Shown: positions 7,018 to 61,768 of the stretch, one piece after another
Layout: every line of letters starts with the position of its first letter
How positions within the stretch are numbered: the first letter of the stretch is position 1
Assembly (NCBI RefSeq): GCF_000025625.1
Contig: NC_013922.1
Coordinates: 1,984,001-2,048,000, forward strand
Length of the DNA stretch: 64,000 nt
Source of the DNA: Natrialba magadii ATCC 43099
GTDB taxonomy: Archaea > Halobacteriota > Halobacteria > Halobacteriales > Natrialbaceae
Direction of reading: 5' to 3'
Position numbers and translations under genes: made by a program
Notes under the pieces: generated by a model
Told to the model about the DNA's origin: nothing
Databases searched by the model: none
The model's input: the letters and a program-made list of their open reading frames with translations, nothing else

Positions 7018-7613
7018 CAGTCCCCGTTCTCGATCGCCGTTTCGAAGCCGTCCTCGGTTCGGGAAACCCCTGCCGCACACACTGCGTGTTCGAACTCGAG
7101 TGCGTAGCTCTCGCTGGCTGCCGCCGTAGCACTCTCGGCATCGAACTCGATCGGTTCCGGTGTGTCCTTCTCGTAGGTCGCCACGAGCGTCGGTTCGTCG
7201 ACGGTCTCGACGAGCAGCGCGTCCTTGCGGACGGTACCGATCAGTGCCTCGCCATCGTCAGTGATCGTCGCCGCTATCCGCGGCGTGTCGTAGTCGTCCT
7301 TCTCGTAGTCGAGCGCGAGCAGACTCTCCGCGAGCGCGTCCCGCGCGGGATAGCCCAACTCGAGTTTCTCCGCGATCGGGTCGACGTGCGAGCCGTTGCC
7401 GAAGGCGACCGTCTCGCCAGTCGGCGTCTCGACGACGCGCAGGCAGTTGTAGGAGACGTACGGGTTGTCGGTGTCCGGCGCATCCTCGGTCGGGCCGACA
7501 GTAAGCGCCTCAGCATCGTCTCGCGCAGTAATTGCTCGGTTCGGGAACGACCGGGAGGAGACGCGGTACGCGCCACCCTCCGGGCCAACGACGACGAATC
7601 GTCCGACGTACAT
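7017..7613 (-). CDS. purO: IMP cyclohydrolase, archaeal PurO type
   Basis: A 198-residue protein matching the archaeal IMP cyclohydrolase PurO, which closes formyl-AICAR to IMP in the last step of purine synthesis and is unrelated in sequence to bacterial PurH. Recognisable family segments are the N-terminal [46 protein letters not shown] and the C-terminal [29 protein letters not shown]. Length is normal. ATG at 7613 is preceded on the minus strand by an AT-rich accactattctc about 30 bases upstream. The stop codon overlaps a family 1 palindrome. Confidence 0.92.
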
Positions 7614-9647: not shown

Positions 9648-11054
9648 CTATTCGCGCGTTTCTGTTTCCTCACTGCTCGCGTACGCACCAGCACGCTCGA
9701 GTACCCCCCGCTGTTGCAGCACGCTGGGTGTGCGACAGATACCGGGTGCGCCGGTGGCCTGCGGCACGGTGCAGTTGTTGCAGCTGTCACAGAGGACTCG
9801 CGGTGTGGTATCCTCGGCAATGAGAGTGGCGTTTGCGTCCGTATCGAGTAGTCGCGCGCCGAGTCGCGGTTCGGCATAGAACGGACGGGCCAGGCCGACC
9901 ATATCGCATGCAGGCTCGGTTTCCTGCCCCGATTCGCCGCCGCCGTTCCCCTCGCCTGCCCCAAGCAATCGATCCATCTCCCTGCGCTCACGAATCCCAC
10001 CTTCTGCGAGTACCGGAATCGACACCGCTTCGCGAACCCGTCGGCAGAACGCTTCGTTCCAGGCCGGCTCGAACCCGTACTGCAGCGACTGGACCCAGTT
10101 TGCGAGCGAGACGAGTCGTCGTCGCGCCGGCCCGCCGAAGGCCGCGTCGTACGCCTCTTGCAGGTTTTCGTTTTCCCATGCTCGCGCGGGATACTCGCCG
10201 CGGACAATGCTCATATCCCAGACGACCGATGTCTGGACCGGTACCACGGCGTCGTAGCCGATCCGCTCGAGTCGGCGCGCAATTTCGACGCCGTCCGAGA
10301 GCGAGAGCTTCCGCCGGACGATCGGCGTGGGTGGTGCAGGCGTCTCCGCCGGGACCTTGGTTACGATCGGAACGTCGCCCGCCCGTCCGCGAATCTCGTC
10401 GTGGACCAGCGCGAGGAACGCGAGTCGGGCTTCGGGTGAGCCGCCGAACTCGTCGTCGCGGCGGTTGTAGAACGGCGAGAGGAACTGCTGGATAATGCCC
10501 ATGTTCGCTGCGGCGAGATGGATGCCGTCGTAGCCCGCTTCCACGGCTGACGCGGCCGCACGGCCGAAATCCCCTGCGAGATCGTACACCTCGTCGGTTG
10601 AGAGCACCTGTGGCTCGTACGAGAGAAAGCCGAGGCGGTCGAGCAACTGAAGCTGCCACGGCGGCTTTGATACCGCCAGTTGCTCGAGGTCGGGATGGCC
10701 GGCGCGATACTCGGCGTTCCAGGTCTCCATACTCCGCAGACCGCCGTGCTCGAGTTGGATAAAAATCCGCCCGCCGTGGTCGTGAATCCGGTCGGTCAGT
10801 CGCGACAGCTGCGAGACGAACGCGGGATCGTGCACGCGGGTCATACCAGGTGCGGCACAGCCGCCCTCGCCGCGGACGATGGTCGCACCCTGAAAAATGA
10901 GCCCTACTCCCGACGCTGCGGCCGGTTCGAGGTCGTCGATCAACGCGTCGACTGCGTCGGGGCCGCTGCCCGCGCACTCGAGTAGCGGTGCGCGGTAGAG
11001 CCGGTTGGGGATCGTCACGCCGCCGATGGTGAGGGGGTCCTCGAGGGTCGCCAT
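9648..11054 (-). CDS. NADH:flavin oxidoreductase, Old Yellow Enzyme family
   Basis: A 468-residue protein with an N-terminal FMN-binding TIM barrel (MATLEDPLTIGGVTIPNRLYRAPL; LEHGGLRS; GYDGIHLAAANMGIIQQFLSP; NRRDDEFGGSPEAR). Past the barrel is a cysteine cluster CDSCNNC followed by C in APGIC, similar to the iron-sulfur site of 2,4-dienoyl-CoA reductase-like members, but the long second (FAD/NADH) domain of those enzymes is absent. A glycine/glutamate low-complexity insert (GAGEGNGGGESGQE) interrupts the barrel's last part. The substrate is unknown. It is convergent with the rhodanese gene. Confidence 0.88.
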   Translation of the reverse strand: MATLEDPLTIGGVTIPNRLYRAPLLECAGSGPDAVDALIDDLEPAAASGVGLIFQGATIVRGEGGCAAPGMTRVHDPAFVSQLSRLTDRIHDHGGRIFIQLEHGGLRSMETWNAEYRAGHPDLEQLAVSKPPWQLQLLDRLGFLSYEPQVLSTDEVYDLAGDFGRAAASAVEAGYDGIHLAAANMGIIQQFLSPFYNRRDDEFGGSPEARLAFLALVHDEIRGRAGDVPIVTKVPAETPAPPTPIVRRKLSLSDGVEIARRLERIGYDAVVPVQTSVVWDMSIVRGEYPARAWENENLQEAYDAAFGGPARRRLVSLANWVQSLQYGFEPAWNEAFCRRVREAVSIPVLAEGGIRERREMDRLLGAGEGNGGGESGQETEPACDMVGLARPFYAEPRLGARLLDTDANATLIAEDTTPRVLCDSCNNCTVPQATGAPGICRTPSVLQQRGVLERAGAYASSEETETRE

Positions 11055-11176
11055 CTGTGCTGTTGACGGCGGTTCAACGGGGATGGATAAGAGTGTGCTG
11101 CCGGGTTGTCGGTTTTCGGTTGCCTGTACCGACTTGGGGACAGTCTTGGGTCACCAGGTGCCAGTACAGTACTCTA

Positions 11177-42288: not shown

Positions 42289-42708
42289 ATGAACTACCGA
42301 GCCGTCGACACCGACGCGGAGTACGTCGCCCGCCTCGACACCGGCGCGGACTGGCGCGCCGAAATCGAGTCGCTCGCTGACGAGGTCGCGGCCGATGCCG
42401 CCTGGTTTACCGCCCTCGGTGCCGTCCAGGACGCTGAACTCTGGTTCTACGACCAGGACGAGTGTGAGTACTACCCCATCGAGTTCGACGAGCCACTCGA
42501 GGTCGCAAGCTGTGTTGGCAACGTTTCCCTGCTGGACAACGAGCGCTTTGCCCACACCCACGCTGTCCTCTCGGACCCCGACGGCACCACCTACGCCGGT
42601 CACCTGAACGAGGCCACCGTCTGGGCCGGTGAGGTCCACATGCGCGTCTTCGAGGAGGGCCTCGAGCGCGAGTACGACGAGACGACCGAGCTCGACCTCT
42701 GGCTCTGA
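42289..42708 (+). CDS. PPC-domain (DUF296) protein
   Basis: A 139-residue single-domain PPC/DUF296 protein. The family segments are YVARLDTGADWRAEIESLADE, ALGAVQDAELWFYD, and GHLNEATVWAGEVHMRVFEE. In plants this domain helps DNA-binding proteins; in archaea its ligand is unknown. ATG 42289 gives the conserved start MNYRAV. Its stop is followed after one base by the polC start, an arrangement familiar in haloarchaea, which hints at a link to replication. Confidence 0.9.
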   Translation: MNYRAVDTDAEYVARLDTGADWRAEIESLADEVAADAAWFTALGAVQDAELWFYDQDECEYYPIEFDEPLEVASCVGNVSLLDNERFAHTHAVLSDPDGTTYAGHLNEATVWAGEVHMRVFEEGLEREYDETTELDLWL

Positions 42709-42709
42709 G

Positions 42710-45700
42710 ATGCGCGCGGAAGACGAACGATACTTCGAGCAACTCGAGTCCCAGCTCGAGGAGGCGTTCGACGTCGCCGAGCGAGCCAAAGAGCGCGGCG
42801 GCGACCCAGAACCCGACGTCGAGATTCCGACTGCGCGGGACATGGCCGACCGCGTCGAGAACATCCTGGGGATCGACGGCGTCGCCGAGCGCGTCAGGGA
42901 ACTCGAGGGCGAGATGTCTCGCGAAGAGGCAGCCCTCGAACTCGCGGAGGATTTCGCAGAAGGGCGCGTCGGTGACTACGAGACGAAAGCCGGCAAGGTC
43001 GAGGGCGCGGTTCGAACGGCGGTTGCCCTGCTTACGGAGGGTGTCGTCGCAGCACCGATCGAGGGGATCGACCGGGTCGAGATTCTGACGAACGACGACG
43101 GGACGGAGTTCGTCAACGTCTACTACGCCGGCCCGATCCGGTCTGCGGGTGGGACGGCACAGGCACTCTCCGTGCTGGTCGCAGACTACACACGCGCGCT
43201 CGTCGGCATCGAGCAGTACGAAGCCAGACAGGAGGAGGTCGAACGGTACGCGGAGGAAATCTCCCTCTACGACAAAGAGACCGGCCTGCAGTACTGCCCG
43301 AAGGACAAGGAGGCGAAATTCATCGCCAAACACCTCCCGATCATGCTGGACGGAGAGGCGACCGGCGACGAGGAGGTCTCTGGCTTTCGCGACCTGGAGC
43401 GAGTCGACACCAACAGCGCCCGCGGCGGGATGTGTCTCGTGCTTGGTGAGGGGATCGCGCTCAAAGCCCCCAAGATCCAGCGCTACACCCGAAATCTGGA
43501 CGAGATCGACTGGCCGTGGCTGCAGGATCTGATCGACGGTAATTACGCAGCTGACGCAAGTGATGGAGACGACACAGCTGACGCAGCTGGCTCAGATGAC
43601 GGAAGCAACGAAGCAGATACGGACGAGAACGCTGAGAACGACGGCGATGATACCGACGGTGACGAAACAGAAGCCGACGAAAGCAGCGACGAAGCCGCTG
43701 TCACCGACGAGACAGATACCTCCGACAGCGAACCGGTCGGCCCACCCCGGGCCGAACCGTCGAAGAAGTTCCTCCGGGACCTGATCGCCGGCCGCCCAGT
43801 CTTCACGCACCCCAGTTCGCCGGGTGGTTTCCGACTCCGGTACGGCCGCGCGCGAAACCACGGCTTCGCGACCGGCGGCATCCACCCCGCGACGATGCAC
43901 CTCGTCGACGACTTCCTCGCGACGGGGACCCAGATCAAGACGGAACGACCCGGAAAGGCCCACGGGATCATCCCCGTCGACAGTATCGACGGCCCCACGG
44001 TCAAACTCGCAAACGGCGACGTTCGCCGAATCGACGACCCCGAAGAGGCCAAAGAGATCAGAAACGGCGTCGAGAAAATCCTCGATACCGGCGAGTATCT
44101 GGTCAACTACGGCGAGTTCGTCGAGAACAACCATCCGCTCGCCCCCGCCTCCTACGTCTACGAGTGGTGGATCCAGGACATGGCGACCGCCGGCGCGGAC
44201 GTGCAAGCCCTCGAGGACGACCCCCGAATTGACCTCGAGTTTCCCGACCCAGCGGAGGCACTCGAGTGGGCCACGGAATACGACGCACCGTTGCACCCCC
44301 AGTACACCTACCTCTGGCACGACATCTCGGTCGAGTCGTTTTGCACCCTTGCCGACGCTGTCGCGGAGGGGTGGGTCGAGGCTGAACCCAGGGAGGGTGC
44401 AGGTACGGGAGCGAACGATGACACCCTGGTACTCGAGTGCACCGAGTCAGTGCAGGAGGCACTCGAGACGCTCATCCTCGAACACCGCCAGCGACCGGAC
44501 GAGAATCGAATCGAGATCGACGACTGGCGGCCGTTCGCTCGAACGCTCGGCTGTGAGCCACGGCAGGCGGTTGCGGACGGTGCGGCGCTGGATTCTGATG
44601 TGGGGGATGCAGATTCGGACCAGGCCTCGGACTCGAACTCGAACTCGAACTCGGACTCGAACCCGAACGCAGCCCACGACAACACGCTCCCCATCGAACT
44701 CGAGCGCACCTGGGACGACGACGACCTCTCGGAACGCGCCCGCACCTGGGGCCACGAGGACGAAGCCGACGGCGCCAACGCGATCGAGGCAGTCAACGAG
44801 GTTGCCCCCTTCGAGGTTCGCGAACGCGCACCCACACGAATCGGGAACCGGATGGGTCGTCCGGAGAAATCCGAGCGCCGCGACCTCAGCCCACCGGTCC
44901 ACACCCTGTTCCCCATCGGCGAGGCCGGCGGCGCACAGCGCAACGTTGCCGACGCGGCTAAACACGCCGAAACCATGTCGGACACGCCCGGCATCGTCGA
45001 GATCCAGATCGGCCGCCAGCAGTGTCCCAGCTGTGGGACGGAGACGTTCAAAAACCGCTGTCCCGACTGCGAAACGCGAACCGAACCCGACTACCGCTGT
45101 CCCGACTGCGACCAGTCGCTCGAGCCAGACGATTCCGGCCGCGTCGAATGCGGCCGCTGTGAGATCGAAGGCACCTGTGTCGAACCCCGCGAGATCGACA
45201 TCAACGACGAATTCCGGAGTGCACTCGAGTCCGTCGGCGAGCGAGAGAACGCCTTCGAGATCCTGAAGGGTGTCAAGGGGCTGACCTCGCAGAACAAGAT
45301 TCCCGAGCCGATCGAGAAGGGGATCTTGCGCGCCAAACACGACGTCTCGGCGTTCAAGGACGGGACTGTCCGCTACGACATGACGGACTTGCCAGTTACG
45401 TCCGTCCGTGCAAACGAACTCGATATCGACGTCGGGCAGCTACAGGCGCTCGGCTACGAGGAGGATATCCACGGTGACCCGCTCACCCACGAGGATCAGT
45501 TGGTCGAACTCAACGTACAGGACATCGTCCTCTCGGACGGCGCAGCCGAACACATGATGCAGACGGCCGACTTCATCGACGACCTGCTGGAGCAGTACTA
45601 CGGACTCGAGCCGTTCTACGAGATCGATGACCGCCAGGAACTCGTCGGCGAGTTGGTGTTCGGGATGGCACCCCACACGAGTGCTGCAACTGTCGGTCGG

Positions 45701-47155
45701 GTGATTGGTTTCACGAGCGCAGCGGTCGGATACGCTCATCCGTACTTTCACGCCGCGAAACGCCGGAACTGCTTCCATCCCGAGACGGAGATCGTTTATC
45801 GTGAAGGGGAGTCGCGGTCTATTTACGACAAGCAGCAGCTCGAATCCGATGACGGGTTGCCACCCGAGGAACGTCCACAACGGGACAGTATTCGCACCTT
45901 CGTCGAGGATCGACTCGAGAACCCGGAGCAAGACGATTTCGGTACGGAATATCAGGAGCTCGATGACGATGTCTGGGTACTCTCGTACACAGGTGTGTGC
46001 TGTCCGAAACGCGTGACGACCGTCTCGAAGCATCCGGCACCGGATCATCTTCTCTCGATCACGACCGAAAGCGGCCGCAAACTCCGAGTGACACCGGATC
46101 ACACGATGCTTCGGTTCGACGAAGATTCCTCGGATCGCCTCTCACAAGAATACTGGAAGGCAGAGACGGTATCGGCTCAGGAACTCTCCCCTGGTGACGA
46201 ACTTCCAACGCCGTCGCCTGTCGGGGAGCGTACAGTCGATGACTTCCTGTTCGGTCCCGTCAAGGAGATCAACGACTTCCCGCCTGCTGTCACAGGCTGG
46301 GATGTGATCTCTGATATCGAAATTATTGAATCGGATACTGATTACGTATATTGTCTGGAAGTAGAGAGTTCGAACACGCTCTCAGCGAATGGAATAATCA
46401 CAGGACAGTGTGATGGCGACGAAGACTGTGTAATGTTATTGCTCGACGGACTATTGAATTTCAGTAAATCATTCTTGCCTGATAAGAGGGGTGGTAAGAT
46501 GGACGCACCCCTGGTCATGTCCTCCCGGATCGATCCCTCCGAAATCGACGACGAGGCCCACAACATGGACATCGTCTCCCAGTACCCTCGCGAGTTTTAC
46601 CTCGCAACCCGCGAACAGGCCGATCCGGAGGAAGTCGATATCCAGATTGGCGAGGACACGCTCGGAACCGACGGCGAGTACACCGGCTTCGAGCACACCC
46701 ACGACACCACCGACATCGCGATGGGACCGGACCTCTCGGCGTACAAGACGCTCGGCTCGATGATGGACAAGATGGACGCCCAGCTCGAACTCTCGCGGAA
46801 ACTCGCCGCCGTCGACGAAACTGACGTGGCCGAGCGAGTCATCGAATACCACTTCCTTCCGGACCTCATCGGAAACCTTCGCGCGTTCTCTCGGCAGGAA
46901 ACCCGCTGTCTCGACTGCGGCGAGAAGTTCCGACGGATGCCACTGACCGGCGACTGTCGGGAGTGTGGCGGTCGCGTCAATCTCACCGTCCACCAGGGAT
47001 CGGTCAACAAGTACATGCAGACGGCGATTCAGGTCGCCGAGGAGTACGACTGCCGGGACTATACCAAGCAGCGACTGGAAGTACTCGAGAAGTCACTCGA
47101 GAGTATCTTCGAGAACGACAAGAACAAACAGTCCGGTATCGAGGACTTCATGTAA
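42710..47155 (+). CDS. polC: DNA polymerase II (PolD) large subunit DP2, intein-containing
   Basis: A 1481-residue precursor of the catalytic subunit of archaeal replicative DNA polymerase D; about 1268 residues after splicing. The N-terminus ([20 protein letters not shown]) and [20 protein letters not shown] are characteristic. Two acidic/Asn-Ser low-complexity inserts lie at residues about 280-345 and 625-657. Zinc modules are seen near 770-825 (CPSCG, CPDC, CPDCD, CGRC) and 1397-1424 (CLDCG, CRECG). A mini-intein (residues 1021-1233) interrupts the catalytic-site motif, which resumes as CDGDED with the two metal-binding aspartates. The small subunit gene is not in the window. Confidence 0.96.
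   Translation: [1481 protein letters not shown]
45770..46408 (+). mobile_element. Mini-intein in PolD DP2
   Basis: Encodes 213 residues, from Cys1021 ([13 protein letters not shown], block A) to Gln1233. Block B is [19 protein letters not shown] with the TxxH motif, block F is [18 protein letters not shown]. The C-terminal block G is ITGQ before Cys+1: the usual His-Asn is replaced by Gly-Gln, a substitution known in archaeal PolII inteins. No LAGLIDADG endonuclease is present, so it cannot home by itself. The insertion site lies immediately before CDGDED in the polymerase active site. Confidence 0.92.
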
Positions 47156-52700: not shown

Positions 52701-53651
52701 TCCGGAGTTTGCGTTGCAGGGCCTCCTGGCCTGTGTTCTGTATAGCACAATTGAATATATCCTCGTTGAGTGTACGGTGCTCCTACTCTCATCTCTCATT
52801 CCGGTCAGTGGCTCTCTCCACCCTGCCAGGGTGCGTTGCAGCCAAGGAATGGCAGTGCTCTCAGCAGTTCTCACTTTGAAACGGACCGTACTCGAGTGCC
52901 ACGACCCGTACGGTGCCCGTTCCGTGAAGAGAAACTGTCTAGCATCCTTGTGCTGCCAGCGCCACCGCAGTTCAGTTTCGTGTCTCTGATCGCGAACGCC
53001 TAACCTGCTATTCCAACGGCTAGCCGCGATCTGAGTGGCAGCGCCGCTGAATCGACTGTCTTGCTCGATGGCAAGCACGTTGCCTGATAGTTTGGCCGAC
53101 GACCAACACGTCGTCTCCGCATTTTGTGCGATGTCCAGCGTGAGTGGCTTGTTGTGCTTGAGCCGTCACGAGCGGGTGTCTGGTTTGGCGGGTACTGGCT
53201 CCTCGGCTGGCAGGGCCGGGATGAACAGCTCTGGAGCGCACATCTCGATGTGCTACTGGAAGGCGGAAACGATCGAAAGTGGAGTGGCGTTACCGTCACG
53301 GGTCGCTGTCGGAGATCAGACTCAACGTCATCTGTCATAAACGGCTTTTCGAGTTGATCAGCTAGCGCAGAAATTTCGTTCTGTCACAGTTACCGGCCGC
53401 TTGTAAACTCTATGGTACGATACAAAATGTTGGGGATCGGGCGAGAACGAGCCGCCGAATAGTTTGCATCTACAGCGTACGTTCTGGCGGTATCGAACCG
53501 GCAGATGGTCGGCATGCAGGTCGGCAGTTAACAGTGCTATTGCCTGAAACGTTCCGTTGTCTGGTTTTCTCCACCCAGAATATGTTCCCTTAGACGTATT
53601 AAAACTACCGCAGACAATAACAATTTTAAACAACCTCTCGGAATGAGGGCC
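52701..53651. other. Long region without a convincing gene; possible decayed DNA
   Basis: About 950 bases between two plus-strand genes. All frames are short and poorly haloarchaeal; a 77-codon frame at 53124-53357 (containing GVWFGGYWLLGWQGRDEQLW) could be a gene remnant. GC content falls toward the right end. The last 40 bases contain the promoter of the next gene (ttttaaa at 53624-53630). Confidence 0.45.
53624..53630 (+). promoter_or_regulatory. TATA-like promoter element
   Basis: ttttaaa is centred about 26 bases before the ATG at 53652, supporting that start over the ATG at 53643 and suggesting a leaderless transcript at the left end of the metal locus. Confidence 0.55.
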
Positions 53652-54248
53652 ATGGAGCTAACACGACGAAAGGCGCTCACGACGAGTTTTAGTGGCCTTG
53701 TGATGGGAACCATCGCTGGTTGCACAGATGATACCCCCGAAGATGAAGAAGAACCGGATACTGCGGACAGTCCAGACTCCGATTCAGCGTCGGCAGACCA
53801 GGAGAGCGATGGGAACGATGGGGCGGATGACGAATCAGATTCTGCCGACGAAACGAACGACGAAGCGGATACAGAAACGCACACTCTGGAGTTGCTAGCC
53901 GAAGAAAAAATCGATCACAACCACGCGTGCCTTCATGCCGAGTTTGATGAGCGAGAGCCCCTGGAGGCTGGTGAGTCGCCTGATACGTCCCCAACGGAAG
54001 ACGAGACACACGTGATCTGGGAGGTGACCTACGAAGGCGACGCTGGTTACGTTGCGTTCGATGCAGACGAACACGAGTATGACGGACCGTTCGTGTTCTA
54101 CACAGCAGAGGGTTCAGCGCTTGCTACTACCGGTACGGAAGTTGACCGGGACACCGTTGGTGATGATGACTGTGCTGACCTGGACGAATACGTTCAGGTC
54201 GAACCTGACGACGGACAGATTGTACTCGAACTGACGAGTTCGTCCTGA
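53652..54248 (+). CDS. Tat lipoprotein with one copy of domain A
   Basis: A 198-residue exported lipoprotein. The signal (TRRKALTTSFSGLVMG) ends in a lipobox with Cys24 (TIAGC). An acidic serine-rich linker (residues 27-75) precedes a single domain (about 78-196) that recurs three more times in the next two genes. Key features of this domain A are a KIDHNHACLH motif (His89, His91, His95), HVIWEVTYEGDAGYVAF, GPFVFYTAEG and a second cysteine (Cys174) in DDDCADLDEY. The histidine cluster suggests metal binding. No known family is recognised. Confidence 0.85.
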   Translation: MELTRRKALTTSFSGLVMGTIAGCTDDTPEDEEEPDTADSPDSDSASADQESDGNDGADDESDSADETNDEADTETHTLELLAEEKIDHNHACLHAEFDEREPLEAGESPDTSPTEDETHVIWEVTYEGDAGYVAFDADEHEYDGPFVFYTAEGSALATTGTEVDRDTVGDDDCADLDEYVQVEPDDGQIVLELTSSS

Positions 54249-54444
54249 TCGGCCGAGGTGATCAAAGGTCTGACTGGGGCCTCGGATGGAGTCCCACCCA
54301 GAAGTTCCCATAGGTCTTCATTTTACAAATTTTCACCGTAGTTTCGGATATTGGCTGCCAAAAGGTTCCTGGCGACGACTACAGCTGTCAAACTCATATC
54401 ACTGAAAAAGAAATAAGAAACCTATATTAATATGGTGTCTCATC

Positions 54445-54482
54445 ATAACATTCTTGAATAGGAAGGGTTCTTTTGTTAATAG
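54445..54482 (+). promoter_or_regulatory. Shared upstream motifs (gene 54484)
   Basis: Contains ATAACATTCTTG (54445-54456) and TTGTTAATAG (54473-54482). Both motifs recur exactly upstream of the metal-binding lipoprotein gene at 59164, in the opposite order. A TATA-like tatattaat lies at 54423-54431. Candidate sites for a common regulator. Confidence 0.4.
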
Positions 54483-54483
54483 A

Positions 54484-57309
54484 ATGGCTCACAAAACCCA
54501 TCCGTCGGCTGAACAGGCACTCAAGCTCGGAGTTGTTCTGATAGCGGTGATGTTATTTGCTAGCACAGCTTTCGCAGCTGGGGTCGGCGCTGTTGGAGAT
54601 GTTCCGCCCGAAGAGGCTGAGGGTCCTGAATTGCTCATCGAAACAAGCGTCGATAACGATCATGCATGTACACATGACGAATACGACGACAGGACAGCGC
54701 TCGATGCGGGTGACTCACCCGATGATGCACCTGTTGTAACGGACGATCACGTCATCTGGAACGTCACCGTTGACGGGGGCGAAGGATTTGTTCAGTTCGA
54801 TAATACTGAGCACGATGTGTACCCTGGCCTCGACTCGTGGGTCTTCTACTACGCTGACGGTGACCTAGAGCCCACTGACGGCGAGGTTCTGGAGACTGGA
54901 GACGTGCCCGAGTGTGGCCTCGACAGCTACGCCGAGGTAGAGACGCCCGAAGACGGTGTGTTCAACCTCCAGCTCACGAGTGATGAACACGATGATGGCG
55001 ACGACGCTGACGGCGAAATCAGCGTCGAGGACGACATCAACGCTGACGACGAGAGCTTCGACGTGACGACGTCGGACTACACGGAGCTCACTGACGGGGT
55101 CGTGCTCGTCGAGGACGGCCAGGATAACGGGGAAACCTACGACCCAGTCGGCGAGGGTGAGACGCTCACCGTTGACGTTGGTGACGCTGGACTCGACCTC
55201 AACGACGGAGAGGACGTTACCGCAACGCTGTACGAAAGCGATAGTCAGGAGAACGAACTCGACACCGACAGCACGACCGTCGAGGAGGCCGTCGGTGACG
55301 AAATTGAGGAGGTCGAAATCGTTGACCGCAGCACAGACGAAGTAGCTGCGTACGTCCACGACGACCACTGGCACGATGAACTGCCACATGTCGACGAGGG
55401 AGAGCACATCTCACTCGGTGCGAATATCGAGACCGCCGACGGCGAGGAAATCGACCTGAGCGACGAGGAATACTCGCTCGATGTTGAACTTGCCGACGAA
55501 GCTAATGAAGATGTCGTCACCTTCGACGAGCACGGCGACCACGTCCACATCGAGGGTGAGGAAGAAGGCCACACCGACGTTGTGTTCCAGCTCGTTCACG
55601 ACGACCACGTCGAGTACGAGACGCCCTCGATAGCAGTCGAGGTCGAAAACCACAACGACGGTGATGGGAGCGAATTCGACGAAGTCAGCGTCTTTGAACT
55701 CCACCAGGACGGAGAGGAAGTCGCTTCGGTCGATGACGGCGAATGGGATGGCGAGGTGCCCGGCATCGTCTACGAGCCGGGAGAGGAGAGGTACGGTAAC
55801 TTCATCGCTGTTACTCTTCATGCCTCTGCTGAAGATGAACACGGGAACGAAATCGAGCTCGGTCCCGACTCTCCCTACGAACTCGGCGTTGAACCCGCCG
55901 ACGAAACTGCTGAAGAACTGTTGAGCATCGATGAACGCGGAGACAGCGTCGTACTGGGTGGTGAAGGGAGCGCTACGGCCGATGTTACCTTCCAGATCCG
56001 CGACGCGGATGGCGTCGAATATGAGACACCAGTCACTAGCGTCGATATTGACGCGCCCAAGGGAGTCAAACTTCTTGCAGAAACAGAAGTTGACCACGAC
56101 CATGCTGCCTTCCACGGTGAAATCGATCCGCGGACGCCGATCGACGCTGGTGCTGCACCCGGTGACGGGCCAGTACTAGAGGAGGATCACGTTTACTGGA
56201 ACGTAACGTACGACGGCACTGCCGGCTACGTCACGTTCGACGCTCACTCGGATGAAACGATCATTGATGGTCCGTTCGTCTTCTATACCGCTGATGGTTC
56301 AGTAGAACCTGTTAACGCAGAGGTTCTCGAACGCGGTGAAGTCGGCGAGATCGAACAACCCTCGGGTGGAACATACGAGACCGACACCATCGAAGAATAC
56401 ATCAAAGTCGAAACGCCCGAAGATGGACAGATTCACTTCCAGGTCAGCAGGAACCTCTCGGCTAACAGTACCACTACAGAGAACGACTTCGCTGGTATCG
56501 TTGCTGACGACGAGCCGTTGCCGGTCGCTGCCGATGGCCTCATCGACGAAGATGGGGCCACTATCGATGACGACGAGGCAACGGTTCAGCTAGTTCGCGA
56601 CGGGACAGTACTCGCTCAAACGCACGGCGTATCGATCGACGACGGCCAAATCTCCGACGCGACGATCGACACCGAAGCGATCGCCGACGATGTCGAACCC
56701 GGACCGGCGACGGTCGAGATTGCGGGAGTCGAGACCGAGACCGAGGCGCAGGTCGAACTCGTCCACGAAGCGCACTCCCTCGAAAACGAGTTCACCACTA
56801 CATCGCTTCCCCAGCCGGCAACCCTGCACACTGAATCGGTAGACACGATCGATCGGTGGGACACCGACAACCAGAGTTACGTCAGTCTCGGAGCACAGTA
56901 CGGCGACGGTGACACTATCGCTAACCCAGATGACCTGCACCGCGGATTGTACATCGGGGCAGCAGATGATGCGAGACTCGGGTACGAATTCGAGACCGAT
57001 AGCAGACCGGCCCCGAGTGACACCCACCTCTCCAACGGATGGCATCTCGCGAGTTCCAACTTCGCAGTCGGTGAGAACGATGGAAATCGAACCCTCGAGA
57101 AGGATCTGGTGAACGTCGATCCGGCTGCCGACGGTGTCACGATCTTCGACTACGAGCAGCGGACACAGCTAGATCCATCGGCATCGATCGCTGGATTTGA
57201 CACGTACTGGGTGTACGTCGACGATCCCGACCGAACCGACCGTGGGATCGTCAGACCGAACTACGATCCAGTTGAGCGTTCGGATATTCTCCACGGAACG
57301 GACGAATAA
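54484..57309 (+). CDS. Large exported multidomain protein with two A and two B domains
   Basis: A 941-residue exported protein with an N-terminal hydrophobic signal (LKLGVVLIAVMLFASTAFA). Layout: domain A1 (49-167, VDNDHACTH), a DUF7282-like beta domain (178-270), domain B1 (277-388, HDDHWHDELPHVDEGEH, very His-rich), domain B2 (398-522, in which the histidines are mostly lost), domain A2 (529-657, VDHDHAAFH), a further beta region, and a C-terminal domain (about 780-941) ending without a membrane anchor. Domain B is also inserted in the neighbouring metal-binding lipoprotein at 59164. A role in binding a metal and passing it on is inferred. ATG 54484 is chosen; an in-frame TTG lies at 54454. 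Confidence 0.85.
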   Translation: MAHKTHPSAEQALKLGVVLIAVMLFASTAFAAGVGAVGDVPPEEAEGPELLIETSVDNDHACTHDEYDDRTALDAGDSPDDAPVVTDDHVIWNVTVDGGEGFVQFDNTEHDVYPGLDSWVFYYADGDLEPTDGEVLETGDVPECGLDSYAEVETPEDGVFNLQLTSDEHDDGDDADGEISVEDDINADDESFDVTTSDYTELTDGVVLVEDGQDNGETYDPVGEGETLTVDVGDAGLDLNDGEDVTATLYESDSQENELDTDSTTVEEAVGDEIEEVEIVDRSTDEVAAYVHDDHWHDELPHVDEGEHISLGANIETADGEEIDLSDEEYSLDVELADEANEDVVTFDEHGDHVHIEGEEEGHTDVVFQLVHDDHVEYETPSIAVEVENHNDGDGSEFDEVSVFELHQDGEEVASVDDGEWDGEVPGIVYEPGEERYGNFIAVTLHASAEDEHGNEIELGPDSPYELGVEPADETAEELLSIDERGDSVVLGGEGSATADVTFQIRDADGVEYETPVTSVDIDAPKGVKLLAETEVDHDHAAFHGEIDPRTPIDAGAAPGDGPVLEEDHVYWNVTYDGTAGYVTFDAHSDETIIDGPFVFYTADGSVEPVNAEVLERGEVGEIEQPSGGTYETDTIEEYIKVETPEDGQIHFQVSRNLSANSTTTENDFAGIVADDEPLPVAADGLIDEDGATIDDDEATVQLVRDGTVLAQTHGVSIDDGQISDATIDTEAIADDVEPGPATVEIAGVETETEAQVELVHEAHSLENEFTTTSLPQPATLHTESVDTIDRWDTDNQSYVSLGAQYGDGDTIANPDDLHRGLYIGAADDARLGYEFETDSRPAPSDTHLSNGWHLASSNFAVGENDGNRTLEKDLVNVDPAADGVTIFDYEQRTQLDPSASIAGFDTYWVYVDDPDRTDRGIVRPNYDPVERSDILHGTDE

Positions 57310-57338
57310 GCTGACCGAAATCTACAATTCACACTTTC

Positions 57339-59093
57339 ATGAAGTACTTCAGAATACTCGTCGTTGCAATCGTGGTCGTATCCGTAGCCACAGCTGGTGG
57401 TATGGCTGTTGCAGTCGCACAGGACGATCCACCAGGACCACCGGCAAGTTTCTACGGTGAAGCCATCGACGAAGATGGGAACGCTGCAGACAGTGATACA
57501 ACGATCGTCGCTGTCGTTGAGGGAGAGGTTGAGGGACAGATTACTGTCGAAACCGCAGGTGAGTACGGTGGCCCTGATACCTTCGACGAAAAACTCAGTC
57601 TCGACAGTGCTGCAGGTGACGAGGTATCGTTCCACGCCGGAAATGCATCCGGTCCGGCAGCTCTCGAGAGTCCAGTCGATCTAGACCCTGGACTGAGCGA
57701 ACGAGACCTCACGTTCCCGGCAGGGACGTTCGACGACAGTCCAGACGACCCAGACGACGGCGATGATGAAGATAACGGTGACGACGCAGACGAGGGTGAC
57801 GACGCAGACGAGGGTGACGACGCAGACAACGGCGATGATGAAGACAACGGTGACGACGCAGATGTCGGTTCTGGGAACGTCGAGTTCCTCATTGAAACAG
57901 ACATCGACAACGACCATGCATGCACTCATGGGGAGTACGACGAGCGCACACCGCTTGAAGCGGGCAACTCACCTGACGATGCACCTGTGGTTGTAGAAGA
58001 CCACGTAATCTGGGATGTCACCTACGAGGGTGACGAAGGGTACATCCGGTTTGATAACACCGAGCATTCTATCTATCCTGGTCTCGACTCGTGGGTCTTC
58101 TACCAGGCCGGTGCCGACCTGTCGCCCACCGACGGAACCGTTCTCGAAACTGGTGACGTAGATGAGTGTCCATCGCTTGATGGGTACATGGAGGTCGAGA
58201 CACCATCCGATGGGGTCTTCGATATCGAAGTTACCGAAGATGGCGACGTCACAGGACCTGCCAGCGATCGAGAAGACGATCAAGAAGAGCAACTCGAGGC
58301 AGCCTTCGATGTCGAGCCATCGGAACCGGTTGTCAACGAGACTGTGGCGCTAAACGCCAGCAACGCTACGAGCGGTGAGGCAGGTATCGTTGCATACGAG
58401 TGGGTTGTTGCCGACACGGAGTTGACCGGCGAACAGGTCAATACGACCTTCGATAGTCCTGGCGAGATCGACATCGAACTGACAGTCGAGAACGATGACG
58501 GTGACACAGATACGACCAATAAAACGATTCCCGTCTCGACGGAATCTGAGCCTCGTTTTGAGGTAACTGAGGTCGATACTCCTGAGACCGTCCCACCGGG
58601 GACTCAATTCAACGTAACAGCGACGATTGTGAATACCGGTGAAAAGAACGGAACGGCAGCGGTTGCACACACATTCGATGGCGAACCAGAGACCGAGCGG
58701 ACGATTGAACTCGCCAGCAACGAGACCGGCGTCGTTCCCTTCAACGTCAGTGCACCAGAGACAGAAGGAGAATACCGGCACACGATTAGCACACCCATCC
58801 ACAACAAATCAGTGACAACAGCAGTCGAAAAGACGAGCGGAGCAGACGAGGAAACGGACCCAGAATCAGAAGACGGACCTGAACCCGAAGAGGAAGGGGA
58901 CGGTGAAGAAAATGGTGTAGAAACGGACGAAACAGCCGAAGCGGAATCGGATGCAGAGGATGAGACTGATGATTCCGTTCCTGGCTTTGGTATTGTGACC
59001 ATGGCGGGAGTCGTTCTCGTGCTCATCGTTTCTTTCCATAGCCAGCAGCGGATTAGGCGTAGAAGGCAGTCACTTATTAAAAACTCCTTCTGA
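57339..59093 (+). CDS. PGF-CTERM surface protein with domain A, PKD and CARDB-like domains
   Basis: A 584-residue exported surface protein. After a signal peptide (residues 1-27) come a beta domain beginning PGPPASFYGEAIDEDGN (33-130), an acidic Asp/Gly repeat linker (134-178), domain A (182-300, IDNDHACTH), a PKD domain (about 318-402), a CARDB-like domain (405-500) and a long acidic stalk. The C-terminus is PGFGIVTMAGVVLVLIVSF followed by basic residues, a PGF-CTERM signal for archaeosortase processing and lipid attachment. It follows the large protein gene by 29 bases and is probably co-transcribed. Confidence 0.88.
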   Translation: MKYFRILVVAIVVVSVATAGGMAVAVAQDDPPGPPASFYGEAIDEDGNAADSDTTIVAVVEGEVEGQITVETAGEYGGPDTFDEKLSLDSAAGDEVSFHAGNASGPAALESPVDLDPGLSERDLTFPAGTFDDSPDDPDDGDDEDNGDDADEGDDADEGDDADNGDDEDNGDDADVGSGNVEFLIETDIDNDHACTHGEYDERTPLEAGNSPDDAPVVVEDHVIWDVTYEGDEGYIRFDNTEHSIYPGLDSWVFYQAGADLSPTDGTVLETGDVDECPSLDGYMEVETPSDGVFDIEVTEDGDVTGPASDREDDQEEQLEAAFDVEPSEPVVNETVALNASNATSGEAGIVAYEWVVADTELTGEQVNTTFDSPGEIDIELTVENDDGDTDTTNKTIPVSTESEPRFEVTEVDTPETVPPGTQFNVTATIVNTGEKNGTAAVAHTFDGEPETERTIELASNETGVVPFNVSAPETEGEYRHTISTPIHNKSVTTAVEKTSGADEETDPESEDGPEPEEEGDGEENGVETDETAEAESDAEDETDDSVPGFGIVTMAGVVLVLIVSFHSQQRIRRRRQSLIKNSF

Positions 59094-59104
59094 CAGCACA
59101 TAGA

Positions 59105-59140
59105 TTGTTAATAGGAGTAGAATGGATAATAACATTCTTG
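59105..59140 (+). promoter_or_regulatory. Shared upstream motifs (gene 59164)
   Basis: Contains TTGTTAATAG (59105-59114) and ATAACATTCTTG (59129-59140), identical to motifs upstream of the gene at 54484. The ataataac part is about 34 bases before the start and may include the TATA element. Confidence 0.4.
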
Positions 59141-59163
59141 CGTAATGAGTTCGACACCTCGGT

Positions 59164-60555
59164 ATGGACGTGACACGACGGTCAGTGTTGAAACGCACTC
59201 TGGGTGGCGCGGCGCTGGGTGCTCTCGCCGGCTGTCTGAACGAACCTGACGAAACGAGTGGTACTGATGGCGGATACGCCTCGTTCTTCGCGCTCTGGGA
59301 CTGGGCTACGCAGATTGCTGGCGATGAGATGGTGTTCGAGAACCCGGTCGACACCGGAGAGATGGGACACGGCTGGGAGCCTGATGGGAATCTCGTCCCG
59401 GAAATCGCCTCGAGTGAGGTATTTCTCTACCTCGACACACCGGAGTTTGCGTGGGCACAGGACATCGTTGCTGACCTCGAGCGCGACTACGAGGACGAAA
59501 TTGTCGTCGTCGATGGACTCGAGGGAATGGATCCGTATCTCATTCCGTTCGATGGTGACAGTGAGTCGCTCCCGGAGCCCGACCACGAACACGGGTTCGA
59601 TCCAGAGAGTATCTCGAGAGACCTCTTCGACTTCTACGACCTCCGCTCGAACGACCAGCTTGGCTACTGGCATATCGATCACTGGCACGGCGGCGTTCCC
59701 GACGTTCCTGTCGATGATAGCGTCCCGATCAGCGCGGCGTTCAGAGATCAGGAAGAACGGGTCGTTCCGCTCGGGCCCAACGAGGAATTCCAGTTTGATG
59801 CTCGATTAGCTGACACTGCGCCAACCGATGTCCTCGATATCGCATCACACGGGGATTCCGTCGAGCTAATCGGCCTCGAAACAGGAGAAACGGAGATTAT
59901 CTTCCAGCTCCGCCACGACGGCGAACTCGTCTACGAAACTGATGCGGCACCGATGAGTGTCGATGTCGTTGCCGAGGTCGACGAAGCGGGCGCAGGTGTG
60001 TTCCATGACCCGCACGTATGGGTTGATCCGGTCCTCGCGAGTCGAGTTGTGGACACCATTGCGGATGGCCTTGCAGAAGTTGATCCCGAGAATGCCGAGC
60101 TGTTTGCCGAGAACGCTGCGGCGTACAAAGAACGGCTCGATGAGGTCGACCAACAGTTCGAAGCGCTCGTCGAGAACGCAGAGCGCGACGTTGCTGTCTT
60201 CGTCGCTCACGACTCGTATCGATACGTCGAACGGCGATACGGCTTCGAGTTACACACCCCGGTAGGTGTTGCACCTGATGCAGCGGAATCTCTCGAGGAC
60301 ATTAGCGATATGATCGATATTGTCGAGAAACATGATATCGATACGATTCTCTACGATCCGTTCGAAACACCGGGGGAGGACGTTCTCCCAACAGCAGCGG
60401 AGATGCTCATCGAAAACAGCTCAGCAACCGATGCTGAACCGCTCAGCCCTGCCGAGGGAACGACTCACGAGTGGGCCGAGCAGGAGTGGGGTTGGGTCGA
60501 ACAGATGGAAGAGGTGAACATTCCGTCTCTCGAGAAAGCGCTGGGGGCAGAGTAA
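59164..60555 (+). CDS. ZnuA/TroA-type metal-binding lipoprotein with domain B insertion
   Basis: A 463-residue Tat lipoprotein (TRRSVLKRTLGGAALGALAGC, Cys24), the substrate-binding protein of a cluster A-I metal ABC transporter. Likely metal ligands are His69 (EMGHGWEPD), His284 (FHDPHVWVDP), His349 (VAHDSYRY) and Asp398 (YDPFETPG). The family is normally about 300 residues; here about 115 extra residues (155-270) form domain B (YWHIDHWHGGVPD ... SHGDSVELIG ... FQLRHDGELVYET), homologous to the two B domains of the protein at 54484. The insert replaces the usual His-rich loop. Zinc is the most likely substrate; manganese is possible. Confidence 0.92.
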   Translation: MDVTRRSVLKRTLGGAALGALAGCLNEPDETSGTDGGYASFFALWDWATQIAGDEMVFENPVDTGEMGHGWEPDGNLVPEIASSEVFLYLDTPEFAWAQDIVADLERDYEDEIVVVDGLEGMDPYLIPFDGDSESLPEPDHEHGFDPESISRDLFDFYDLRSNDQLGYWHIDHWHGGVPDVPVDDSVPISAAFRDQEERVVPLGPNEEFQFDARLADTAPTDVLDIASHGDSVELIGLETGETEIIFQLRHDGELVYETDAAPMSVDVVAEVDEAGAGVFHDPHVWVDPVLASRVVDTIADGLAEVDPENAELFAENAAAYKERLDEVDQQFEALVENAERDVAVFVAHDSYRYVERRYGFELHTPVGVAPDAAESLEDISDMIDIVEKHDIDTILYDPFETPGEDVLPTAAEMLIENSSATDAEPLSPAEGTTHEWAEQEWGWVEQMEEVNIPSLEKALGAE

Positions 60556-60652
60556 ACGTGCTGTCACGTCTCTGTGGGGAACCGTCGTTCTGCACGAGTG
60601 CCTCGTTTGCTGACCGCTTCGAGTCGGAAACGAGCTTTGAACACGCTCAGCG

Positions 60653-61768
60653 ATGAGCGCTGACGAAAACGGGCCCATTGCTGCCGGTGAACCGGCCGAA
60701 TGGAGTCGCAGTCGTTTCGAACAGTGGAGCGGCTACTCACTGCGCAAGCTGATCGAACTGGTCGGTGCGGTTGTCACGATTGGCCTCGCCGTCGCCATGC
60801 TCGGATTCATCACGCTCGATTGGCTTCGGTTCGCACCGGAGTGGGCAGTCATTGGCTCCTACGCGGAGTTGTTGCTTGGGCTGTTCCTGACTGGCGGAGC
60901 GTGGCTGGATACGTCCCTGGGAACGAACGTGTTCCAGTACTTCTTCACGTGGCGGGTAATCGCAACGGGTGTCCTCGTCGGGATCGCTGCGCCACTCATC
61001 GGAACGTTTCTGATCCATCGACAGATGGCCCTTATCGGCGAAACGCTCGCACACACAGCGTTTACCGGTGTTGCTATCGGAGTACTACTCGTCGCTGTTA
61101 CCGGCTGGACTGGATCTCTCTTGTTCGTCGCACTTATCGTGAGTGTACTCGGTGCGCTTGTACTCCAGTGGTTGACCGAACACACCGCGGCCTATGGCGA
61201 CGTCCCCATCGCAATCGTCCTCAGCGGGAGTTTCGCAATCGGAACACTGCTCGTCAGTTGGAGCCGAGATTTCGCTTCGGTGTCGCTCAATATCGAGGGG
61301 TTCCTCTTTGGCAGCCTCGCAATTATCACTGCCGAAGGCACGCGGATGGTCGCCATACTCACCGTTGCCGTCGTTGCCGTTGTCGCGGTCACCTACAAGC
61401 AACTGCTGTTCATCACGTTCGACGAGCAGGCTGCCCGCGTTGCGCGGCTCAACGTCGACCGTTACAACACGCTGCTAATTGGGATGGCTGCAGTCATCGT
61501 CGTCGGTGCGATGCAAATCCTCGGTGTTATTCTCGTTGCGGCGATGCTCGTTATCCCGGTCGCAACGGCCTCACAGATTGCCAACAGCTTCCGGGAAACG
61601 TTATTGCTCTCTGTCCTGTTTGGACAGGGTGCAGTTCTCGGCGGGCTAGCGTTTTCGATCAGAACGAACCTCCCGCCTGGCGGTTCAATTGTCGTCGCCG
61701 GAATCGTCTTTTACGGGCTTACTATCGTCCTCTCAGACCGATCCGCGGTTGCAATCTCTACACACTAA
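60653..61768 (+). CDS. ABC-3 family metal transporter permease (ZnuB-like)
   Basis: A 371-residue membrane permease of the ZnuB/TroC family. The core begins at FFTWRVIATGVLVGIAAPLIGTFLIHRQMALIGETLAHTAF and continues with SFAIGTLLVSWSRDF, ITFDEQAARVARLNVDRYN and ILGVILVAAMLVIPVATASQIA. The N-terminal 100 residues add two hydrophobic segments (VGAVVTIGLAVAMLGFITLDWLR; GSYAELLLGLFLTGGAW) before the family start. It follows the binding-protein gene by 97 bases. The expected ATPase subunit gene is absent on either side. Confidence 0.92.
   Translation: MSADENGPIAAGEPAEWSRSRFEQWSGYSLRKLIELVGAVVTIGLAVAMLGFITLDWLRFAPEWAVIGSYAELLLGLFLTGGAWLDTSLGTNVFQYFFTWRVIATGVLVGIAAPLIGTFLIHRQMALIGETLAHTAFTGVAIGVLLVAVTGWTGSLLFVALIVSVLGALVLQWLTEHTAAYGDVPIAIVLSGSFAIGTLLVSWSRDFASVSLNIEGFLFGSLAIITAEGTRMVAILTVAVVAVVAVTYKQLLFITFDEQAARVARLNVDRYNTLLIGMAAVIVVGAMQILGVILVAAMLVIPVATASQIANSFRETLLLSVLFGQGAVLGGLAFSIRTNLPPGGSIVVAGIVFYGLTIVLSDRSAVAISTH

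Follow-up and report, generated by a model that had tools for sequence, protein, structure and literature searches.

A probable zinc-starvation uptake module of Natrialba magadii whose surface proteins share domains with a ZnuA-type binding protein

Metal importers whose binding and surface proteins share a domain are known from the actinobacterial anchored-repeat ATP-binding cassette (ABC) transporters (TIGR03769, TIGR03770 and TIGR03772). A likeness to them is found in a 64,000-nucleotide stretch of the haloarchaeon Natrialba magadii ATCC 43099 (contig NC_013922.1), referred to here as the window, in which five genes, P0001 to P0005, encode three exported proteins, a ZnuA-type lipoprotein and an ABC-3 permease. 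In Corynebacterium diphtheriae, a cluster (dip0438-dip0445) and cmrA are regulated by Zur (PMC6711530), and the anchored-repeat cluster of that species resembles the present system in belonging to a zinc-starvation regulon. However, the anchored-repeat systems use sortase-anchored proteins, whereas archaeal lipoproteins are used here, and a single slot of the haloarchaeal binding protein can hold any of three domains (A, B or C). TIGR03769 matched none of the A or B members and nothing above its cut-off in 10 genomes, which bears out, at the sequence level, the proposal of the initial annotation that the domains differ from the actinobacterial ones. P0004 scores 60.9 bits with TIGR03772 (cut-off 350.45), and P0005 scores 86.8 bits with TIGR03770 (cut-off 296.8). 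The ZnuA-like locus of one actinobacterial record was ordinary in appearance.

A second precedent is the AztABCD system, in which exported AztD transfers zinc directly to AztC of a ZnuA-type importer (PMC6689063, PMC7463823), much as in the relay proposed below. P0004 scores 78.8 bits with the AztC model, against a cut-off of 350. AztD is not known to have a domain in common with AztC. By these comparisons, the present system is predicted to work like the anchored-repeat transporters and the AztD-AztC pair while being a member of neither. The two-domain zinc lipoprotein AdcA, with its fused ZinT (PMC7858048), likewise carries an extra zinc-recruiting domain. Scans of A and B with Pfam and NCBIfam matched neither ZinT nor Pht. 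The ZinT part of AdcA is a C-terminal fusion and not an insertion into the His-rich loop, and the pneumococcal Pht surface histidine proteins serve the lipoprotein AdcAII. In haloarchaea, zinc uptake and its control have barely been described. The operon ZnuA1-C1-B1 of Haloferax volcanii is linked to zinc, as the Znu genes here appear to be, although the searched passages of its description mention neither A/B domains nor the operator reported below (PMC8155600).

All five open reading frames (ORFs) are intact and lie on the + strand within 53643..61768, in agreement with the initial annotation, which had placed five genes with their export signals in a row on one strand. The features, numbered by their positions in the window, are:

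53596..53623, + strand: operator of P0001 (GTATTAAAACTACCGCAGACAATAACAA), 17.6 bits, at -57 from start 53652
53643..54248, + strand: P0001, a twin-arginine translocation (Tat) lipoprotein with a single domain A, likely start 53652
53892..54242, + strand: domain A of P0001, E 4.8e-57
54424..54451, + strand: weak operator of P0002, 2 mismatches, 7.2 bits, at -61 from ATG 54484
54454..57309, + strand: P0002, a secreted A-B-B-A protein, likely start ATG 54484
54631..54984, + strand: domain A, copy 1, of P0002
55300..55647, + strand: domain B, copy 1, of P0002, His triad present
55684..56052, + strand: domain B, copy 2, of P0002, His triad lost
56071..56454, + strand: domain A, copy 2, of P0002, both Cys lost
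57339..59093, + strand: P0003, with domain A, PKD, CARDB and a PGF-CTERM-like tail, without an operator of its own
57885..58241, + strand: domain A of P0003, E 4.8e-61
58974..59090, + strand: PGF-CTERM-like anchor segment of P0003, below threshold at 13.8 bits versus a cut-off of 24.5
59105..59132, + strand: operator of P0004, 23.6 bits, at -60
59164..60555, + strand: P0004, a ZnuA-type Tat lipoprotein divided by domain B, PF01297 E 4.5e-44
59620..59967, + strand: domain B within P0004, ahead of FHDPHVW, at the position of the His-rich loop
60653..61768, + strand: P0005, an ABC-3 (ZnuB-type) permease, PF00950 E 8.6e-53

As read from the sequence, P0001 begins with a twin-arginine motif and a lipobox (TRRKALT...AGC), P0004 carries both of these elements as well, and P0002 and P0003 begin with Sec-type signals. 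The A-B-B-A portion of P0002 is followed by a C-terminal region without a family match, and P0003 ends with SVPGFG, a hydrophobic stretch and an Arg tail. P0004 (PF01297) and P0005 (PF00950) both exceed their gathering scores and form the pair expected of a cluster A-I zinc ABC importer, and their predicted identities as ZnuA and ABC-3 proteins are unambiguous.

P0001 and P0003 each contain a single domain A, and P0002 contains two; of domain B, P0002 has two copies and P0004 one. Two further statements of the initial annotation are thereby upheld, namely that the three exported proteins share domain A with conserved histidines and that the largest of them shares domain B with the binding protein. 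The histidines are invariant in all four A copies, three of which are 47-51% identical to the first. Scanning Pfam and NCBIfam member by member (37 A and 30 B) gave a credible match for neither domain, and searching the PDB sequences with A and B gave nothing credible; partial matches of A (about 35 residues) to the artificial repeat proteins named "Cake" were dismissed. Homology between A and B was rejected as well (hhalign probability 1.4%). Among 48 A domains, the three histidines of the triad are retained in 45, while the two cysteines are both kept in 40 and both lost in 3; because the pair is kept or lost jointly, it suggests a disulfide. Some A proteins bear long His/Asp tracts. The motif of B is H-x2-H-W-[HD]. 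When B is inserted in ZnuA, its first two histidines are always present (49/49), and the third position has His in 46 copies and Asp in the other three. When B stands alone, all three histidines are found in 52 of 73 copies, and 59 of the 73 carry an additional HGDH.

AlphaFold gave confident models of both domains (predicted local distance difference test 96.5 for A and 91.7 for B). That of B is immunoglobulin-like (Ig-like), its best matches being Rib and S-layer Ig domains (prob 1.0, E 2e-3). No convincing match was found for the model of A among PDB structures, the best one, a collagen-binding domain (prob 0.30), being too weak for naming the fold. We infer that A and B are small exported beta-domains that bind zinc. 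In motif and fold, B resembles ZepA of Anabaena and other bacteria, a Zur-regulated zinc exoprotein with an Ig-like domain and the motif H-X2-9-H-F/Y-H, for which no archaeal homologue was reported at the thresholds of that study (PMC10957091). Both are exported, B is modelled as an Ig-like beta-sandwich such as ZepA has, the motifs are similar, and the zinc regulon of ZepA likewise has COG0523 and ZnuA neighbours. However, B has Trp (H-x2-H-W-H) where ZepA has Phe/Tyr, a second domain, of a new fold, is present in ZepA, and B also occurs inside ZnuA; the likeness is one of motif and fold class, and fold class alone is not homology.

When P0004 was aligned with AdcA and related proteins, the alignment broke exactly at the His-rich loop and resumed at FHDPHVW, and the insert of about 118 amino acids between the two ZnuA halves is domain B. 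The four metal-ligand positions are retained in this alignment (MGHGWEP, DPHVW, VAHDSY and YDPFE) and, as read from the sequence, agree with a Zn-type site made up of three His and one acidic residue. Other Halobacteria fill this slot with tracts rich in His, Asp and Glu, with B, with A, or with a third domain some 120 amino acids long, domain C (L154 and L155, from genomes G036 and G014; PWEWAGLYHL...HYVLFAQH), which has His-rich tracts on both sides and gave no credible match in Pfam or NCBIfam. In a tree built from the C-terminal halves of 80 ZnuAs, the slot content must have changed at least 7 times, and by the starred branches the A insert must have arisen twice independently. In addition, L065 has B inserted into A at the spot where other A proteins have a His/Asp tract, and L101 has a standalone B protein beside a ZnuA that lacks an insert but has a long His tract. 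From such exchanges, it seems that A, B and the His tracts have a similar job, and the repeated swapping of domains in a single ZnuA slot would bear on the purpose of the His-rich loop itself.

Of 391 Halobacteria genomes, 26 contained domain A (18/86 genera; E down to 1e-60) and 71 contained domain B (27/86 genera), these counts being lower bounds with only the best first-look candidates scored; such recurrence excludes a chance origin of the two domains. A search of plasmids for A and B gave no match. ZnuA lies within the 20 kb fetched, at a distance of up to roughly 10 kb, at 20 of about 30 A-bearing loci, and it is present in 32 of 40 B regions that were picked from the hit list and are not a random sample. 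The usual order in the B regions is B lipoprotein, ZnuA(B), ABC ATPase and ABC-3 permease, and standalone A or B lipoproteins directly adjoin ZnuA in many genera. By our own estimate, proximity by chance would amount to 1-2%, assuming about three Znu loci per 4-Mb genome. The initial annotation had held that A and B lying mostly away from metal transporter genes would count against it, but most of these loci adjoin ZnuA/ZnuB. Outside the class Halobacteria, genus g104 has secreted proteins with two B domains and a PGF-CTERM signal at the C-terminus (L146 8843-9868 and L148 9585-10607), the tail of the L148 protein scoring above the Pfam PGF-CTERM cut-off. No ZnuA was present in the fetched regions of the g104 B loci, including those with other B proteins (L146, L147, L148, L149 and L150).

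The genes are also connected by a shared operator. Upstream regions have in common TTATTAA-N14-ATAATAA (an inverted repeat, TTATTA-N16-TAATAA) about 60 nucleotides 5' of the start and just 5' of the TATA-like sequence CTTTTA. A weight matrix was built from 123 upstream regions of A, B and ZnuA genes, and sites of at least 16 bits near -60 were found in 95 of the 123 regions on which it was trained. At a threshold of 17, there were 143 sites in the loci versus 2 in reversed or complement controls. A pattern search of the N. magadii genome allowing 2 mismatches yielded 38 matches versus 61 in the control and hence was not above it; consequently, only sites with 0-1 mismatch and matrix scores were used. 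The placement of operator and TATA box at -60 to -25 fits the H. volcanii ZnuA1-C1-B1 transcript, which starts 4 nucleotides before the ATG (PMC8155600). In the window, no operator was found when the regions upstream of P0003 and P0005 were scored with the matrix, and the transcription units are probably P0001, P0002-P0003 and P0004-P0005. The earlier reading of the row as a metal-acquisition system stands insofar as the same domains recur in the exported proteins and in the binding protein, but the three operators indicate that the row does not form one operon.

The presence of COG0523 proteins is an established sign of a zinc-starvation regulon, and no recognisable Fur or Zur was found in the archaeal genomes examined in 2009 (PMC2770081). 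The operator precedes COG0523 GTPase genes in L038, L059, L062 and L092 and in N. magadii itself (L170; CobW identity; 24.0 bits), is flanked by a COG0523 gene and a NikR-family gene in both L154 and L155, and occurs 5' of the gene for an FAD/NAD(P)-binding protein (L168). As the matrix was trained on A, B and ZnuA regions, the COG0523 and other independent finds carry the most weight. The operator also precedes A genes distant from ZnuA (L008, L009, L047, L048, L050 and L060), and its sharing therefore supports, independently of gene proximity, a zinc-starvation regulon that would span A, B, ZnuA and COG0523 genes. Possible new members in N. magadii are encoded at L195, where strong operators precede both an FAD/NAD(P)-binding protein gene with a rhodanese gene behind it (9856-11151) and an 81-amino-acid ORF (7234-7479). 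A paralogous FAD protein gene adjoins COG0523 at L196 (8453-9721).

NikR-family regulators whose genes carry the operator (L154 15444-15908 and 18333-18722, L155 3292-3723, L202 and L221) are candidate repressors, and two such genes diverge from COG0523 genes. The 6-N16-6 geometry of the dyad agrees with that of NikR boxes. However, NikR as the general regulator is supported only in part, as most NikR_C genes lack the operator; those that have it were found only in G036 and G014 and not in most of 19 genomes.

Taken together, the cluster probably encodes a zinc-starvation uptake module in which surface A/B proteins feed the B domain of ZnuA. P0005 would serve as the permease and P0004 would bind zinc with high affinity, the ATPase (ZnuC) probably being supplied in trans by the second Znu system of the genome. 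P0001 as a lipoprotein, P0002 as a secreted protein and P0003, probably attached to the surface, would collect zinc at the cell surface via their A and B copies. Domain B of P0004 may take the place of the flexible loop, rich in His, by which zinc is normally gathered above the ZnuA site, and zinc would move to this domain by domain-to-domain exchange, then to the ZnuA site, and then through the permease into the cell. The TTATTA-N16-TAATAA operator would mediate repression when zinc is sufficient. The domains, the insertion point, the gene linkage, the sharing of the operator and the COG0523 membership of the regulon are evident at the sequence level, whereas we infer the binding of zinc, the steps and direction of its transfer, and a repressor. 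If such transfer is true, this would be an instance of an importer with the same domain as its own surface scavengers, built from domains that do not match the actinobacterial ones.

Several findings weigh against this proposal. One of the two B copies in P0002 has lost its His triad, the operator of P0002 is weak (the two-mismatch site listed above), and about 10 of the 30 A loci have no ZnuA in the 20 kb fetched. Small solo B lipoproteins (about 150 amino acids) lie away from ZnuA in L096-L100, the three such genes that were scored (L096, L098 and L100) lacking the operator, and a fusion of NosL (a copper chaperone family), B and a His-rich tail is found away from ZnuA and without an operator at L108 (8701-9777). 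Because of these proteins, the use of B is not confined to this system. Moreover, no ABC ATPase ORF is present in the window, including between P0004 and P0005, a point absent from the initial annotation, and P0002-P0003 may have come to stand beside ZnuA only recently, their silent divergence being lower than that of ZnuA between the same genomes.

The strongest alternative, which we consider unlikely but worth keeping in mind, is that the A/B surface proteins are a co-regulated zinc store, buffer or shield, parallel sinks without any relay, while ZnuA takes free zinc and its B domain merely concentrates zinc near its own site. Co-regulation and linkage need no direct transfer, some A loci are distant from ZnuA, and P0002 has no visible membrane anchor, all of which this explanation accommodates. 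It accounts less well for the occurrence of the same domain types both within ZnuA (in cis) and in adjacent proteins (in trans), or for the two independent insertions of A into ZnuA, both of which favour functional contact.

A less probable explanation is that the importer takes up manganese, iron or some other divalent ion in place of zinc. Cluster A-I binding proteins carry Mn and Fe too, operators stand at NikR-family regulators (L154, L155, L202 and L221), and a NosL-B fusion exists. However, the binding site of P0004 keeps its three His and acidic residue, and the sharing of the operator with COG0523 GTPases makes zinc a better-supported substrate than an unspecified metal. In addition, ZnuA genes of another clade, without A/B (L067, L156, L157, L164 and the second ZnuA of L064), lack the operator and show a different, TTAG-N6-TCTAA-like dyad, possibly a DtxR/SirR-type site.

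With regard to the missing ATPase, nearly all other complete loci have one between ZnuA and ZnuB. The best ZnuC-like ATPases of N. magadii are encoded at C1:3618005 and C1:990716; the closest is part of the second Znu system (L068), which has a B lipoprotein and a ZnuA(B), and it shares 69% identity with the cognate ATPase in G063, a close relative. The silent divergence (dS) between P0002 and its G063 homologue is 0.38, whereas that of ZnuA in the same two genomes is 1.53, and an A / A-B-B-A / A cluster is found away from ZnuA in G063, G212 and L008. For these two reasons, the window joins two modules in a composite cluster, and P0002-P0003 have probably moved between genera by recent transfer. 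Consistent with this, P0002-P0003 differ from homologues in other genera far less at silent sites than the adjoining ZnuA does, and GC content is about 56% at 54454-59093, compared with about 63% over most of the window. That the locus is instead a decaying or non-functional remnant, its ATPase lost and its surface genes acquired later, is about as improbable as a different metal: it would account for the lack of both an ATPase and an ATPase remnant between P0004 and P0005 where almost every other complete locus has the gene, and for the difference in silent divergence between P0002-P0003 and ZnuA, but all five ORFs and the P0001 and P0004 operators are intact, a close ZnuC homologue is encoded elsewhere in the genome, and pN/pS ratios of 0.19-0.27 for ZnuA and ZnuB, which are under purifying selection, and 0.29-0.31 for P0002 argue against decay.

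A broader version of the surface-to-permease relay is possible, though on balance doubtful. It would comprise an unrecognised haloarchaeal zinc regulon with its own operator, in which the ZnuA loop is a docking slot refilled by the carrier domains A, B and C, free zincophores made of A and B recognise the importer via its own copy, B is the archaeal counterpart of ZepA, and the repressor is of the NikR family. The domains, the operator and the gene set are direct test objects in tractable haloarchaea.

Genes recurring downstream of ZnuB were considered as zinc genes and rejected, as their products are acyl-CoA synthetase and DRTGG proteins. In L068, L039, L041, L051, L070, L075 and L091, a gene at this place encodes a protein of about 700 amino acids that resembles acyl-CoA synthetases (ATP-grasp, CoA-binding domains), and it is usually followed by the gene for a DRTGG/AAA_26 protein. 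Elsewhere in the window, positions 42629-47155 encode the large subunit of DNA polymerase II (DP2) with an intein-splicing domain that scores below the Pfam cut-off.

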